Source: Flavobacterium enshiense DK69 (GTDB lineage: Bacteria; Bacteroidota; Bacteroidia; Flavobacteriales; Flavobacteriaceae). From it: a stretch of 64,000 nt of DNA. Below, in pieces: positions 41,975 to 56,028 of the stretch. The stretch's first letter is position 1. The number at the start of each line of letters is the position of its first letter. Both the position numbers and the translations under genes were made by a program. The notes beneath the pieces are model-generated. The model made no database searches. It saw only the letters and a list, made by a program, of their open reading frames with translations, and was not told the origin of the DNA. The stretch spans positions 310,001-374,000 of the forward strand of contig NZ_AVCS01000009.1 in the NCBI RefSeq assembly GCF_000498495.1, in the 5' to 3' direction.

Positions 41975-43786
41975 TTACGCCATTTCTAAGGCAAAAAATT
42001 CAATTTGAGCCAATTCTTTTCGGTATTGTGTCAACTGTCGCTGAACATCCTGCTGAACATCCTTAAAATATTTAGTCGACGAGAAAAGATTTTGATAATA
42101 ATCGATTCCTGCCAGAAGATTACTTTTGAAAGAATTCCATTTTTTTGTCTGCCCTGCTGTTATCTCTCCGGAAAAGTCGCTAATCTCTTTTTTCAGATAC
42201 TCCACATACATTTTCAATTCTTTTACAAATACATGCGGACGGTTTTTATCGGTCATGATATTCCCGTTTCCGTAAATGTGACGAACCATTTCGGCTAACG
42301 ATACTTCTTTGTCAAAATACGCCAGATTTGGTCCAGGGCAAATAACAACGCCCTGCTGTTGGCCTTTTATTTCTATGTCGTTTTCCAGATAAGCGGCATT
42401 TACCAAACCTACGCACAGACAGGATTTTTCAGTAATTGCATTTTTTCTTTTATCAATTTCTGTAGGCGTCAGATCTTTTTCAATAGCTTTTAACTCATCC
42501 AGTTTGATGTCCTGAAATTTTTTGGAAGCGGTACAAAGGCCTTTGTGGTCATATTCTTTGTTTAATGCCAGCAGTCTTTTGGGGCAGGAACTTCCGGCTT
42601 TATTCTGATCGATTCTTTTTTGCTTCCAGAAATCGTTGGATACGCCCTTTACGGAATTAAAGGGAACACCCAGCGGAGAAATATTGCTTAGATAAAAATC
42701 GTCTTCTTTGGCTTTGGCCAATATATTTCTTGTTTCTTTGTCAAGTGAAGTAGCTTCGGGAACCAATAAAAAAGGCGACCCCCAGCCAACGGAATCCAGA
42801 TTGTAATGCTCGAGCAAAAAGTCATGCTCTTCTGCAGTTCCGATGCCTCCCTGAGCGGTGATTTTCAGTTCCATTGGTTCTGTTGGTACATGCAGTTCTT
42901 TTAGTGTTAATGCTTTGATCAAAAGTTCTTGTGCCGATTGGATCAATTGGTCTTTTTTCTCTTTGAATTCTTCCAAAATCGGTCCCATTAAATAACCGTC
43001 TGTGGCAAAAGCATGACCACCGCAATTTAATCCCGATTCAATTCGGTATTCGGAAACCCAAAGTCCTTTTTTAGCAAGGAAATTACCTTGAATCAATGCG
43101 GAACGATAATCGCTGACTTTTAGAATAATCTTCTTTTTCAGGTTGCCGTGCGCATCAGGGAAAAAATCCTTGAAATTTTCAATGTAGCTGAATAGTCTTG
43201 GGTTCATTCCTGCAGAAAACACAACTGATGAATTCAGTTCGCTCTGGGCAAATCCTCTTAATGAGGCGTGGGCATCGTTGAATTCTACCGGTAATTGGGT
43301 GTCATTTTTAAAATTGTCCTTGTCCACTTTTGTCATGATGTTAACATCAATACTGCCGGGCGAGAAATAGTCTTCAAGAAAATTTTGAATGTTTTTCTTA
43401 ATGGTACTTCCTTCATTGATGACCTTTTCCAGGTTGATCTTTAAATCGGAAGTGTTGGGCAGAACGGATATGAAATTTTCCAGTGAAGTTTTATTTTCGA
43501 GCAGTTCATTTTTAAAGTTCTGGAATTTTTCTTTTACCGTATCATTTACCATGTTCAGGTAGGCCGTAATTCTTTTTGCCCTGTAGTCAATGGTTTTTTG
43601 CGTAATTTCCAGATAAGGGATGTTGAATTTATCACAATAAAAAGCCCTCAATTTTTCGAGAATTTCATCATCGGTAATAGCTATTACGGAGGAAATGCCG
43701 TAATGGGCAACACGGATAGGACTGTCAATGGTGTAGGACAGTCCCATTACCGGTATGTGAAAAGTATGTAACTGTTTTGTTTTCAT
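41975..43786 (-). CDS. Unrecognised 603-residue protein, TIM-barrel-like with cysteine cluster
   Basis: Not recognised as a named family. The N-terminus (IPVMGLSYTIDSPIRVAHYG) and the middle (LKITAQGGIGTAEEHDFLLE, then DSVGWGSPFLLVPEATSLD) recall the FMN-binding end of nitronate monooxygenase/FabK-type TIM barrels, but this is only similarity by eye. A cluster of Cys lies in the last third (GSSCPKRLL, GLCTASKK, KSCLCVGLVN), suggesting a metal or Fe-S site. No signal peptide. It has its own Crp/Fnr-like site and ends 14 bases from the convergent nrdG, so it likely works when oxygen is low or NO is present. Confidence 0.55.
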   Translation of the reverse strand: MKTKQLHTFHIPVMGLSYTIDSPIRVAHYGISSVIAITDDEILEKLRAFYCDKFNIPYLEITQKTIDYRAKRITAYLNMVNDTVKEKFQNFKNELLENKTSLENFISVLPNTSDLKINLEKVINEGSTIKKNIQNFLEDYFSPGSIDVNIMTKVDKDNFKNDTQLPVEFNDAHASLRGFAQSELNSSVVFSAGMNPRLFSYIENFKDFFPDAHGNLKKKIILKVSDYRSALIQGNFLAKKGLWVSEYRIESGLNCGGHAFATDGYLMGPILEEFKEKKDQLIQSAQELLIKALTLKELHVPTEPMELKITAQGGIGTAEEHDFLLEHYNLDSVGWGSPFLLVPEATSLDKETRNILAKAKEDDFYLSNISPLGVPFNSVKGVSNDFWKQKRIDQNKAGSSCPKRLLALNKEYDHKGLCTASKKFQDIKLDELKAIEKDLTPTEIDKRKNAITEKSCLCVGLVNAAYLENDIEIKGQQQGVVICPGPNLAYFDKEVSLAEMVRHIYGNGNIMTDKNRPHVFVKELKMYVEYLKKEISDFSGEITAGQTKKWNSFKSNLLAGIDYYQNLFSSTKYFKDVQQDVQRQLTQYRKELAQIEFFALEMA

Positions 43787-43839: not shown

Positions 43840-43855
43840 GTTGATAAAAGTCATG
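43840..43855 (-). promoter_or_regulatory. Crp/Fnr-type site of the 603-residue protein gene
   Basis: On the minus strand CATGA-CTTTTA-TCAAC: one half-site is perfect (CATGA, with the AACATGA extension seen at norC), the other weak. A -7-like AACCTTTG (43811-43818) begins after a 21-base gap. It also lies at the end of the neighbouring oxidase-like gene. Confidence 0.5.
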
Positions 43856-45182
43856 TTCTGAATTTGTTGCGTATTAATTGTAAAAGTTTAAAAGAGATGA
43901 GGTATAACCCGGTCAGTAAACCGAATCCGAACAACACGAAAACAGCATAGATCCAATGCATTGAATTCTGAAATGTTCCAAAAGAAATGTTTTGGCTGAA
44001 GTAAGTCCAATGTCCTTTTTTAACGCCCAAAACCAATAGAGTGACCCAAAAACAGATAAAAGAAATATGGAAAATTTTGATTCCCTGTTTTATTTTTAAA
44101 AGTACGGTTGCGGTAAACATGAATTCCTTTTCAAGGATGTACGTTATTGATGAAAACAATATAAGCGTGTTTATCCCGATGGTTGTTCCCATGGAATGGG
44201 CTACGGTTATATGAGTTCCGTGCGTGAAAAGGTTTATTGACGGTATGGAAATCAATAAGGCTAAAATAATATTCAGAAACACCCAGAAATCGGCTAAAAT
44301 CATAAACTGGTAAGCAATAAAATTGGCTTTCTTTTTTTCTTTACCAAGATTTTTTTTCCAGTCATAAATGATTGAGAAAAGAATGACCCATTCGGTCATG
44401 CTGATGGCATAGGCAACATATCTGATCCATGGACTTGTCGGTACTATGTAAATGTGGTGTGCCCAGCCAAACATTAAATTGGTTAATCCTAAAAAGTAAA
44501 AGAAAAAGGCTTTTTTTGATTTGGCATAGCTTTCATCACTGCTGATTTTTGACATAACAAATAATGCAGTTCCATATACCAATTGATTCCAGGCGCCCAC
44601 ATACGAGCCGCCAGCTTTCCATTGAATGGCGAAGTTTCGGAGAAAATTATCTCTGAAAGAGGAAAGCAGCCACAAATGCGCTTCTGTGAAATGGAAGATC
44701 ATAAAAACTATTCCTGTTCCCCACATCCAGTAGTACACCGGCCAGGTTTTGAAATTTGGGAGCATGGTTTTGAAATAATTAATGCCTAACAAAATCCATC
44801 CGACAATAATTGGGAAATAAAAATAGGCTGGAAATTCAAGATATTCTTTGCCACCGAAATTATGGGTAACATATGAAATTGCAATTCCGATTCCAGTTAG
44901 CAGAAAAAGCCAGAAATGCCACTGGACAAACTGGTGGTTGAAAAATTTAATTTCCGGATTTTGACTCAGGTAATAGTAAATTCCTCCCATTGCCGATAAC
45001 AGGATCCAGGAAACGACAAACAAAGTATGTAACGGACGTAACGAGTTAAAAGGTAATGTTTCTTTGATGAAATCCGGGACGATGTATTGAAATCCGGCTA
45101 ACAGGCCGCAAAGCAACCCGAGTAGTAATGAAATTAATCCGGTGCCGATAAACAGGAATGCGTATTTTTTAACATTATTCAT
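43851..45182 (-). CDS. Divergent NO-reductase-like haem-copper oxidase subunit I
   Basis: 443 residues from MNNVKKY (an upstream in-frame start at 45266 would overlap the cytochrome gene by 92 bases and lacks conserved sequence). Ten or more membrane helices align by eye with NorB at 54643-56028: RPLHT holds the helix-II haem ligand (His52), AHH the paired helix-VII ligands (His242, His243), and THGTHITVAHSMGTT the helix-X region. Differences from NorB: the helix-VI motif HLWVEGVWE reads GSYVGAWNQ, so the FeB ligand His and both Glu are lost; and the two helix-X haem ligands HxH read H-S-M (His329, Met331). Helix V instead has HFTEAHLW. It overlaps the NorC-like gene by 8 bases. Confidence 0.7.
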   Translation of the reverse strand: MNNVKKYAFLFIGTGLISLLLGLLCGLLAGFQYIVPDFIKETLPFNSLRPLHTLFVVSWILLSAMGGIYYYLSQNPEIKFFNHQFVQWHFWLFLLTGIGIAISYVTHNFGGKEYLEFPAYFYFPIIVGWILLGINYFKTMLPNFKTWPVYYWMWGTGIVFMIFHFTEAHLWLLSSFRDNFLRNFAIQWKAGGSYVGAWNQLVYGTALFVMSKISSDESYAKSKKAFFFYFLGLTNLMFGWAHHIYIVPTSPWIRYVAYAISMTEWVILFSIIYDWKKNLGKEKKKANFIAYQFMILADFWVFLNIILALLISIPSINLFTHGTHITVAHSMGTTIGINTLILFSSITYILEKEFMFTATVLLKIKQGIKIFHISFICFWVTLLVLGVKKGHWTYFSQNISFGTFQNSMHWIYAVFVLFGFGLLTGLYLISFKLLQLIRNKFRT

Positions 45183-45606
45183 AATATTGATCTTTGTATT
45201 TAATGGTAACCCAACCATTGTTTTTGGAATTCGCCTGCAGATTAGGGTAAAAACCGGTCTGGTCAATTTCTTTTAAGAATTGGACCAATTGATTCTTTTC
45301 TTCTTCGTTAAAATGAAATTTAGGCATAGCTTTCACGCCACTGTTAAACATGGCCTTGAGATAATCTTCGCTGGAGATCCTTGAGTAGGCGTTGGTTAAA
45401 TCCGGACCAAGGTATCCGCCAAGCCCATAAATCTGATGGCAGGAATTACAGTTGTTTTTAAGCCAGATATTTTCGCCTTCGATTGCTTTTTTTGACAAAT
45501 GCACTTCGCCAAAATCCGAATCTGAAGTGTATAAAATACTATTGTAGACAAGGAATACTGATACCAGACAAAGTAAAAAAATGGAATATTTCCGATAGTG
45601 TTTCAT
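45175..45606 (-). CDS. NorC-like membrane-anchored cytochrome c
   Basis: 143 residues. An N-terminal membrane anchor (about residues 8-25) precedes one haem-binding motif CNSCHQIYGLGGYLGPDLT, which matches NorC (CMGCHTIMGEGGYYAPELT in norC here). It is the small subunit of the divergent oxidase-like protein, whose gene overlaps its stop codon. A candidate axial Met lies in GVKAMPKFHF. The gene has its own Crp/Fnr-like site. Confidence 0.82.
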   Translation of the reverse strand: MKHYRKYSIFLLCLVSVFLVYNSILYTSDSDFGEVHLSKKAIEGENIWLKNNCNSCHQIYGLGGYLGPDLTNAYSRISSEDYLKAMFNSGVKAMPKFHFNEEEKNQLVQFLKEIDQTGFYPNLQANSKNNGWVTIKYKDQYYE

Positions 45607-45661: not shown

Positions 45662-45677
45662 TATGATTGCAATCACA
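45662..45677 (-). promoter_or_regulatory. Crp/Fnr-type site of the divergent NOR-like pair
   Basis: On the plus strand TATGA-TTGCAA-TCACA (one half perfect, the other TGTGA on the minus strand). A -7-like TCAATTTG (minus strand, 45633-45640) begins after 21 bases. It abuts the upstream terminator at 45678. Confidence 0.55.
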
Positions 45678-45713
45678 AAAAAAGCGTAAACACTTTTTTG
45701 TTTACGCTTTTTT
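45678..45713 (-). terminator. Terminator after the fasciclin gene
   Basis: A 14-bp perfect stem (AAAAAAGCGTAAAC / GTTTACGCTTTTTT) with an 8-base loop and T run. It separates the fasciclin gene from the NorC-like gene and directly adjoins the Crp/Fnr-like site. Confidence 0.85.
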
Positions 45714-47612: not shown

Positions 47613-48202
47613 TAGAAATAAATTTTATGGTTTACTATTTCAACTTTTTCGCATTGGTTCATTTTGGATAAAGCTCTTATAACTGTTTCTACGCGGAGTC
47701 CTGTAAAATTGGCAATTTCCTGCCTTGTAAATGGTATAAGTTCTTTTTCGAGATTTTTTTTGCTTTTTTTGTAGTCATTCAGAAAGGCCATGATCCTGAA
47801 TTCCGGCTTTTGGTTTATAATATCCTTTGATGTTTTCGCTTTCGAGTGGATTCTTTGGCACATCAGATTTAAAAAATCTTTTTGTACGGATGGATATTCT
47901 TCCAGAATCTTCAAAAATTTATCTTTTGATAATTTTATGATCGTACAATCCTGGAATGCCGTGGCAGTAGAGGGGTAACTTTCATTTATGAATAAGGGAG
48001 GCTCACCAAAACTTTGTCCACTATAAAAATAACCTTGGGTGAATTCTTTTCCGTCGTCATTAGCGTTAAACATCCTGACTATTCCTTCAGCTATTTGATA
48101 ATAAAAATTAGCCTGATTATTTTCTCTGAAAATAACTTCGCCTTTCTTATATTCTTTCGCTATTGCACCCCATGTGAAGAGTAAATCGATGTCTACAAGC
48201 AT
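47612..48202 (-). CDS. Crp/Fnr family transcription regulator, candidate NO/low-oxygen regulator
   Basis: 196 residues. A cyclic-nucleotide-binding-type beta-roll occupies about residues 10-100 (GEVIFREN, SGQSFGEPPLFIN) and a winged helix-turn-helix residues 155-196 (TRQEIANFTGLRVETVIRAL). It lacks the N-terminal cysteines of Fnr, so it does not carry an Fnr-type cluster; a haem-binding DNR/NnrR-like mode is possible but not shown. The recognition helix has Val171, Glu172, Ile175, Arg176; CRP has Arg-Glu-Gly-Arg and FNR Val-Glu-Ser-Arg at these places. A Crp/Fnr-like site with a perfect -7 box lies in front, so it is probably autoregulated. Confidence 0.85.
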   Translation of the reverse strand: MLVDIDLLFTWGAIAKEYKKGEVIFRENNQANFYYQIAEGIVRMFNANDDGKEFTQGYFYSGQSFGEPPLFINESYPSTATAFQDCTIIKLSKDKFLKILEEYPSVQKDFLNLMCQRIHSKAKTSKDIINQKPEFRIMAFLNDYKKSKKNLEKELIPFTRQEIANFTGLRVETVIRALSKMNQCEKVEIVNHKIYF

Positions 48203-54642: not shown

Positions 54643-56028
54643 TTAATTTAATTCGAAGACTTCTTCTTTGCTTGAAAATTCAGGAGCTTTCGTTTTTTGG
54701 TCAACCAAAGCTTCGTCAGTTGGTCTTCCATATTTAATGAAGTCGTAGATAAACATGATAATTCCTGTAGTAAACATTGCGGCACAAAGTAACAATATCA
54801 CAAAGTGAATACTGATTTCGTTTTGTACGGTCATGAATTCCATTTTCATTTTTCTTTCCATGTATACTTGAGCTATCCCGGCTACTCCAAAAGCAGCTGT
54901 CATTCCCAAGATTCCGATGTTAGAGAGCCAGAATGCCGCCGAACCTGTTTTCATCATATAACGTTTGCGGCCAGTCAGGTTTGGCATAGCATAACTTATC
55001 ATAGCCAACACAATCATGGCATAGGCTCCCCAGAAAGCATAGTGTCCGTGTGATGCGGTAACCAGCGTGCCGTGTGTATATAAGTTGGCCTGAGGTAAAG
55101 TATGTGCGAAACCTAGTATACCTGCACCAATGAATGATACAATAGAAGAACCGATTGTCCAGAATAATGCAACTTTGTTAGGATGGCTTTTTTCACCTTT
55201 TCTGTACATGTTGATTGCGAACAGTGCCATTGCTAAGAAAGCTAAAGGTTCTAATGCTGAAAATATACCTCCGACGATCAGCCAGATTTTATTTACACCG
55301 ATGTAATAGTAATGGTGTCCTGTGCCTAAAACCCCTGAAAGGAATGTCAGTCCGATAATTACATACAGCCATTTCTCAATTACTTCACGGTCTACACCTG
55401 TCAATTTGATTAGAAGGAAAGAAAGTATACCTCCCATAATCAATTCCCAAACACCTTCAACCCATAGGTGGACAACCCACCAGCGGAAGAATGAATCCAT
55501 TACCTGGCTGTCAAACCAAATCATACCCGGTAAATATAGTAAAGCGGCGAAAAGCAATCCCATTGACAATACCAGTGCAGTAGTGGTTTTGCGTTTTCCT
55601 GTAAAGAGTGTTCCTAAGATTAGGCCAAGGAAGAGCAATACGTTTACGACGACCAAAAAGTCCAGTTCTCTTGGAATTTCCAAGAATTTACGTCCTTCCC
55701 AATGATTAAAGTGGAATCCCACAATAGCGATAACACCTACCACAGCAAGTGAGACTAGCTGAACTATGGCCAGCTTCGGACTGATTAATTCTCTTTGTGC
55801 TTCTTCGGGGATTATGTAATAGGCTGCACCCATGAATCCAGTCAGCAACCATACAACGAGTAAGTTGGTATGCACCGCTCTTGCTACGTTAAATGGGATG
55901 ATGTCGTGTAAACCTTGTATACCGATTCGGTCAAAGCCCATGATAAAACCATAGACAAGCTGCAATGCGAATAAAAGCATGGCCAATGCAAAGAACCAGT
56001 AGGCGATTTTTTGTGATTTATATTTCAT
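54643..56028 (-). CDS. norB: Nitric oxide reductase large subunit NorB (cNOR type)
   Basis: A 461-residue membrane protein with twelve helices that reduces 2 NO to N2O. All expected residues are present: helix II His53 (ARAVHTN), helix VI HLWVEGVWE with the FeB ligands His187 and Glu191 and the second Glu195, helix VII HH (His238, His239), and helix X with His327 and His329 (ASHGHY). The length is right for the short cNOR form, and norC lies 27 bases upstream. The gene is followed by norQ. Confidence 0.96.
   Translation of the reverse strand: MKYKSQKIAYWFFALAMLLFALQLVYGFIMGFDRIGIQGLHDIIPFNVARAVHTNLLVVWLLTGFMGAAYYIIPEEAQRELISPKLAIVQLVSLAVVGVIAIVGFHFNHWEGRKFLEIPRELDFLVVVNVLLFLGLILGTLFTGKRKTTTALVLSMGLLFAALLYLPGMIWFDSQVMDSFFRWWVVHLWVEGVWELIMGGILSFLLIKLTGVDREVIEKWLYVIIGLTFLSGVLGTGHHYYYIGVNKIWLIVGGIFSALEPLAFLAMALFAINMYRKGEKSHPNKVALFWTIGSSIVSFIGAGILGFAHTLPQANLYTHGTLVTASHGHYAFWGAYAMIVLAMISYAMPNLTGRKRYMMKTGSAAFWLSNIGILGMTAAFGVAGIAQVYMERKMKMEFMTVQNEISIHFVILLLCAAMFTTGIIMFIYDFIKYGRPTDEALVDQKTKAPEFSSKEEVFELN

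Follow-up and report, generated by a model that had tools for sequence, protein, structure and literature searches.

Can an NO-reductase (NOR)-like protein that lacks the helix-VI ligands for FeB still be a working enzyme, and on what would it then act? The question is posed by a second NOR-like gene pair, here called norC2 and norB2, in the window (the whole 64,000-nucleotide stretch from Flavobacterium enshiense DK69 that was analysed), which is a denitrification and N2O-reduction region. The original prediction had placed an NO-reductase-like pair here, and both genes are present, with NorB2 aligning with the ordinary NorB and NorC2 with NorC. The features on which the argument turns are:

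43854..45182, minus strand: norB2, encoding a 443-aa subunit with the haem-copper-oxidase fold
45178..45606, minus strand: norC2, encoding a 143-aa NorC-like cytochrome c, monohaem (CNSCH), whose N-terminus includes a hydrophobic stretch
47615..48202, minus strand: crp, encoding a Crp/Fnr-family regulator (PF00027 and PF13545)
54.6-56.5 kb: norC1 and norB1, the ordinary NOR
28.9-30.9 kb: Sec-dependent nosZ, above the NCBIfam cut-off
60.4-61.9 kb: copper nirK, above the NCBIfam cut-off

The window also encodes a NorQ-type ATPase (CbbQ/NirQ/NorQ C-terminal domain), adjoined by a NorD-like protein whose label rests on a VWA domain and gene position.

The two genes of the pair, both on the minus strand, overlap by 8 bases. 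The most likely start of norB2 is the ATG at 45182, which was preferred to a TTG at 45266 that is an extension of the mechanical ORF. As predicted, the pair has a NorC-like subunit of its own: NorC2 matches Pseudomonas aeruginosa NorC (3o0r_C) with an E-value of 6.5e-12 (phmmer) and the window NorC at 36% identity across 92 columns, while NorB2 and the window NorB share 22% identity (E 2e-17). One genome from each of 84,980 species was scanned for a sequence pattern, which turned up 384 stretches that encode relatives; the analysis went on with the best 80. In 77 of these best 80 of 384 loci norC2 lies immediately upstream of norB2; of the three exceptions, two (L026, L036) start within norB2 and one (L078) has no norC2 ORF. 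A 603-aa protein encoded at 41978-43786 (minus strand) adjoins norB2; it has no Pfam match at E 0.001, and best hits to it occur in 31 of the best 80 of 384 norB2 loci.

Residue conservation was read from an alignment (A2) of 70 proteins—the window protein and 69 of the best 80 of 384 loci, the other 11, truncated or near-duplicate, being omitted at the analyst's choice—together with four distant members. The original prediction held that helix VI of NorB2 had lost the FeB ligands. Aligning the NorB2 profile with those of 12 cNOR-type proteins (probability 100) and 26 CcoN proteins (99.7) gives the same picture: G192, V195 and N199 pair with H187, E191 and E195 of the window NorB, and G192 also pairs with the CuB-ligand His of cbb3 CcoN. 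The loss is independent of alignment register, because residues 184-207 contain no His, Glu or Asp in any of the 70 aligned members; the shifted helix-VI alignment that the original prediction had named as its possible flaw was thus ruled out. M331 pairs with the helix-X haem b His, again as predicted.

Thirteen positions are identical in 70/70 members and 4/4 distant members: His52, Glu113, Glu167, Gly192, Gly196, Asn199, His242, His243, Tyr245, Glu264, His321, His329 and Met331. Glu264 occupies the position of Glu280 in Pseudomonas cNOR, and His324, present in 68/70 and 4/4 distant members, is absent from the NORs and CcoN proteins aligned. Glu113, invariant in 74/74, is the Ca-site Glu, equivalent to Glu135 of PaNOR, which is reported to be a Ca ligand (PMC3431322). 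As a separate observation, the ordinary window NorB (54646-56028, minus strand) and seven relatives of its family carry Lys (GRKFLE) at this position; NorB2 retains the Glu, and NorB proteins from Sinorhizobium, Rhizobium, Azospirillum and Sulfuricurvum plasmids (n = 4) retain Glu135.

Of the six signature histidines reported for the haem-copper oxidase superfamily (PMC3413370), NorB2 keeps four (H52, H242, H243 and H329) in 74/74 and has lost two, the helix-VI His to G192 and the helix-X haem b His to M331. The FeB set of cNOR, three His and Glu211, is likewise incomplete, the two helix-VII His being retained. Retention of His52, His329 and the His pair makes it likely that NorB2 still binds two b haems, in which case Met331 would give haem b a His/Met ligand pair. 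Met ligation would be expected to raise the potential of haem b.

NorB2 belongs to the haem-copper oxidase superfamily as a subunit I, on the evidence of both a match to PF00115 (99.9 bits against a cut-off of 34.8) and its predicted fold. An AF2 model, predicted without cofactors, reached a pLDDT of 89.8 and a pTM of 0.92. The closest structure was cNOR 4xyd (VIA Z 42.0, rmsd 2.4, 423 aligned), followed by a tie between cbb3 oxidases 3mk7 and 8smr (Z 40.5) and cNOR 3o0r (Z 40.4), with the qNOR entries among the matches listed at Z of about 30-32. The sequence profile gave a similar order: 5e-23 for cNOR 4xyd, 4e-12 for cbb3 8smr and 7.5e-6 for qNOR 3ayf. Modelling, which the original prediction had proposed as a way of finding a metal pocket, thus returned the NorB fold, with residues 244-248, beside His242 and His243, modelled at low confidence (pLDDT <50).

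It had also proposed a superfamily tree, and there NorB2 forms a group of its own. The NorB2 rows comprised the window protein, 12 of the 69 A2 loci and the four distant members; CcoN rows L119 and L134 were left out, an antisense frame having been picked for each. In a 33-row tree NorB2 is a single group (100/99), on a long branch and with a program warning that long branches meet, apart from cNOR plus NorB1 (100/99) and from CcoN (100/100); the three groups persist in a 32-row tree without a very long A-family row (100/99, 100/100 and 100/100). On these trees NorB2 is a clade near cNOR and cbb3 and inside neither. One other protein behaved unusually: a 447-aa oxidase-like protein with CcoN-type motifs (L112, genome G212) joins CcoN on a long branch with modest support, and is possibly another divergent haem-copper oxidase.

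Assignment to cNOR, cbb3 and qNOR/NOD was considered and rejected. NorB2 has the NorC-like subunit of a cNOR, but lacks the helix-VI FeB ligands and falls outside the cNOR clade. It has G192 for the CuB His of a cbb3 oxidase and a gap opposite the helix-VII Tyr of CcoN, which with the CuB His triad characterises that oxidase; 67 of the 70 members match the NCBIfam ccoN model, the window protein reaching 37 bits against a cut-off of 583. A qNOR or NO dismutase (NOD) has about 750 aa and a fused N-terminal cytochrome-like domain, whereas NorB2 has 443 aa and a separate NorC2. The original prediction had also named eNOR, gNOR and sNOR for comparison, without assigning NorB2 to any of them. These and other alternative NORs are reported to be related to B-family oxidases (PMC11388526), and a cupredoxin subunit is predicted for sNOR, gNOR and eNOR (PMC8756737). 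The partner gene of norB2 encodes a haem c protein, not a cupredoxin subunit II, and the best sequence and structure matches of NorB2 are cNOR and cbb3; it does not look like a B-family alternative NOR, judged by the descriptions of those proteins rather than by placement in a tree. On these comparisons both the scaffold of NorB2 and its type of partner are familiar, yet it lies outside cNOR, cbb3 and qNOR/NOD. Literature titles and abstract openings showed no apparent description of the family; work on NOR diversity may contain an earlier account.

The family is present in a minority of the genomes sampled and sharply delimited. NorB2 was found in 10 of 199 Flavobacteriaceae genomes (E up to 1e-20) and in 8 of 395 genomes drawn from across the phylum (E up to 1e-40). 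Among 247 genomes, again spanning the phylum, family members scored from 182 bits (a fragment) to 721 bits, well clear of the next protein at 68. The best 80 of 384 loci are titled mostly as Flavobacteriales or unresolved Bacteroidetes MAGs and include single MAGs labelled Chitinophagaceae, Cyclobacteriaceae and Chlorobiota. In a tblastn search of plasmids with P0001, none of the 214 records reached 60% identity or covered 80% of the query; among the 30 matches listed, those with annotation read NOR or cbb3-type. One genome, that of Flavobacterium macrobrachii (G581, source of locus L021), has two norB2-like frames of 445 and 447 aa, scoring 108 and 91 bits to PF00115. The gene is under purifying selection and not decaying, because dN/dS lies between 0.035 and 0.146 in the 25 closest pairs listed; together with uninterrupted frames in 32/32 genomes, this rules out a pseudogene.

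Those 32 NorB2 genomes (27 reached through named-strain loci from the best 80 of 384, plus five others) form a non-random sample containing related genomes and some drafts. All their PF00115 proteins were listed, with cNOR and qNOR assigned by bit score and frame length rather than by tree; no class was given to four oxidase-like proteins of 252-286 bits, which occur in G568, G595, G596 and G600, each of them with a qNOR by score. Seventeen genomes have a cNOR and five a qNOR-like protein, with one genome counted in both groups; the other 11 have neither. Flavobacterium croceum and F. buctense are among the species that lack cNOR in this census. In these 11 NOR-less genomes the PF00115 set consists of CoxA-like and CcoN-like proteins and NorB2 only. 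A NorD-like gene occurs in 17/17 of the cNOR genomes and 0/15 of the others. NorQ and NorD are reported to be essential for insertion of FeB into cNOR (PMC9976466); retention of NorB2 without a NorD-like factor is as expected if canonical FeB is missing. Since 11 of the 32 genomes lack both cNOR and qNOR-like proteins, NorB2 is not merely a partner of cNOR; as some related bacteria keep it where no ordinary NOR was found, it probably works as an enzyme whose active site is unusual.

Among the 199 Flavobacteriaceae genomes, cNOR occurs in 8/10 NorB2 genomes (28/199 overall), nosZ in 10/10 (90/199 overall) and window-type nirK in 5/10 (38/199 overall). Among the 32, window-type nirK is present in 19/21 NOR-bearing genomes and 1/11 NOR-less ones (G604), so that the ten NOR-less genomes without a match may make little NO of their own; a search for NirS by PF02239 found it in 0/32, a count that carries no weight, since the control was positive in 0/14 genomes. 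nosZ was found in 11/11 NOR-less and 18/21 NOR-bearing genomes (29/32), the three without a match being G595, G596 and G600.

Neighbours within about 9 kb of norB2, counted as best hits to window proteins in the best 80 of 384 loci, include a RIC-type ScdA/hemerythrin gene (34/80), an Rrf2 regulator (30/80), a 415-aa membrane protein, P5 (29/80), a NorD-like gene (26/80), the best match to the window NorB1 (19/80) and nos genes. The RIC-type and Rrf2 genes and the nor and nos genes point to NO. The cluster also holds neighbours that we take, from sequence, to be anaerobic ribonucleotide reductase-like and nadAB-like genes.

The original prediction gave the pair its own Crp/Fnr-like site, and this stands:

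45664..45675, minus strand: TGATTGCAATCA, a Crp/Fnr-like palindrome 69 bases upstream of norC2

Upstream of norC2, the FNR consensus in full (TTGATN4ATCAA) is not enriched (at least 9/10 matches in 1/77 loci, against 3% in shuffled sequence). The core TGATN4ATCA, chosen after that result was known, occurs exactly within 200 bases upstream of norC2 in 25/76 loci, drawn from the best 80 of 384, against a mean of 0.5 and a maximum of 3 in shuffled sequence. In the window, nirK and crp also have exact copies upstream, and the core was found upstream of nadA (11/48), RIC (5/33) and Rrf2 (6/30) genes. This pattern would fit Fnr/Crp-type control of a wider gene group, with the crp gene of the window as a candidate regulator of the norC2B2 cluster. 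Expression together with the true NOR, which the original prediction thought likely, is supported only in part, because the window norC1 has no core copy within 200 bases, and only 1/16 norC1 loci have one; nor could co-expression be the full account in the 11 of 32 genomes that lack cNOR and qNOR-like proteins by score. Between the fasciclin gene and norC2, positions 45678-45713 hold an inverted repeat with A/T runs (aaaaaagcgtaaac and gtttacgctttttt) that, read by eye, resembles a terminator; norC2B2 would then be a separate transcription unit in the window.

We propose that NorC2-NorB2 is a working, stand-alone, cytochrome-c-fed membrane haem b/b3 enzyme that removes NO without a canonical FeB. 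Because we infer its haem content, its electron path, NO as its substrate and any second metal site, we hold this proposal tentatively, at a little short of an even chance. NorC2B2 would derive from the cNOR/cbb3 branch of the superfamily. Electrons from a periplasmic cytochrome c would enter at the haem c of NorC2, pass to low-spin haem b (His52/Met331) and from there reach high-spin haem b3, held by His329; NO would bind on the open side of haem b3 and be reduced or otherwise consumed. Canonical FeB could not form, because Gly and (mostly) Val stand in place of the helix-VI His and Glu, and catalysis would proceed at haem b3 alone or with a second metal at His242, His243 and Glu264. If a second metal exists, these three are the better candidate ligands, because they are kept in 74/74.

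The original prediction had looked for that metal elsewhere, at a site relocated to His164, Glu167 and His169 on helix V. His164 and Glu167 are indeed invariant in 70/70, and Glu167 is kept in 4/4 distant members, where it is the sole survivor of the three: His164 becomes Ile or Thr in all four, while His169, which is His in 58/70, becomes Tyr. His164 moreover aligns with the helix-V His of cbb3 CcoN, and we consider a relocated site very improbable. More doubtful still is an NO-dismutase-like reaction (2 NO -> N2 + O2) at the altered site. Putative NODs are reported to be altered both at a coordinating His and at a Glu near it (PMC3413370), but they are described as fused proteins of qNOR type in which Asn takes the place of His and a proper quinol site is missing, whereas NorB2 retains a haem c donor and has Gly at the lost His.

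Another substrate, such as low O2 or hydroxylamine/nitrite, might instead be used at a mono-haem b3, the NO setting reflecting microoxic regulation only. A helix VI without FeB ligands, the ribonucleotide reductase-like and nadAB-like neighbours and the absence of a window-type nirK match from 10 of the 11 NOR-less genomes would all suit this reading; the linked nor-accessory, RIC-type and Rrf2 genes, and the co-occurrence of cNOR in 8/10 NorB2 genomes, point to NO instead, and we regard another substrate as unlikely, though the most serious of the competing accounts. That co-occurrence (8/10 among the 199 genomes), with norC2B2 often beside norCBQDEF and a NorB match in 19/80 flanks (best 80 of 384), could also mean that the pair catalyses nothing itself and serves cNOR by buffering electrons or storing NO, but the 11/32 NorB2 genomes without cNOR or a qNOR-like protein, and the 20/28 cNOR genomes among the 199 without NorB2, leave this with little probability. 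Support of N2O respiration, perhaps by carrying electrons to NosZ, seems about equally improbable: nosZ accompanies NorB2 in 10/10 genomes of the 199 and in 29/32, but 80/90 nosZ genomes of the 199 lack NorB2, and G595, G596 and G600 carry NorB2 with no nosZ match.

The centre of haem b3 and CuB/FeB is seen as the core of the superfamily. A conserved clade that lacks the helix-VI ligand, has Met for a haem b His and is retained where cNOR and the NorD-like gene are missing makes the need of FeB for NO chemistry on such a fold directly testable. A broader claim, to which we give somewhat less credence, is that NorC2B2 represents a new and widespread functional class of the superfamily, acting on NO or another small oxidant without the canonical FeB/CuB site, by haem b3 alone or with a metal held by two His and one Glu (His242, His243, Glu264), and with a His/Met haem b. 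On that reading some N2O-reducing Bacteroidota would have NorC2B2 as their sole protein of the kind. A large survey reports removing candidates without conserved ligand-binding domains, a filter of the kind that would drop the NorB2 family, and reports 9% of Bacteroidota with nir and nosZ but no nor (PMC12569097). As that class is described, the NOR-less NorB2 genomes would mostly fall outside it, because only 1/11 (G604) has a nirK match; in that survey most of the 11 would be classed as nir-less N2O reducers.

A further protein of the window touches the same fold. P5 (46368-47612, minus strand), between the crp and fasciclin genes, has no Pfam match above cut-off and no NCBIfam match. Its AF2 model (pLDDT 89.3) aligns from end to end with subunit I of haem-copper oxidases, with a Foldseek E-value of 7e-7 and, against cbb3 8smr, VIA Z 34.7, rmsd 3.4 and 10% identity over 406 aligned residues; it is modelled as a third, cryptic haem-copper-oxidase-type protein. 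H46, H186, H322 and E364 are invariant in 21 aligned relatives, among which no neighbouring His pair is invariant. No significant match emerged when the P5 profile was compared with those of NorB2, cNOR and CcoN (Prob 5.3, E 0.007; Prob <1 in three global runs), so the link to the oxidases is visible by fold comparison only.

Among known systems, eNOR, sNOR, gNOR, bNOR and nNOR are, like NorB2, divergent NOR-like members of one superfamily; compared by description, they differ in that NorB2 has a haem c subunit and finds its best matches in cNOR and CcoN. Putative NODs share with it a changed FeB ligand in a NOR-like protein, but there His becomes Asn, whereas NorB2 has Gly and a separate haem c subunit. 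With cbb3 CcoN (3mk7, 8smr) NorB2 shares the fold (VIA Z 40.5), a QW at the start of helix VI, the helix-V His (His164) and an RPLH-type helix-II motif; it differs in Gly192 for the CuB His, the gap at the helix-VII Tyr, Met for the haem b His and a single NorC-like cytochrome c partner. Cytochrome bd is of a different enzyme family, and any likeness to it is analogy only. Its haem b558 is reported as a low-spin haem b with His/Met ligation (PMC8951039), which sets a precedent in a membrane enzyme. cNOR, the cytochrome-c-dependent NO reductase (NorCB; 3o0r, 4xyd), has in common with the NorB2 pair the fold (VIA Z 40.4 and 42.0), a NorC-like subunit, the helix-II His, the helix-VII His pair, the helix-X b3 His, the Glu280 and Ca-site Glu135 equivalents and an HGT motif ahead of helix X; NorB2 differs from it in lacking the helix-VI His and Glu, in having Met for the haem b His, in forming its own clade and in occurring without a NorD-like gene in 15/32 genomes.
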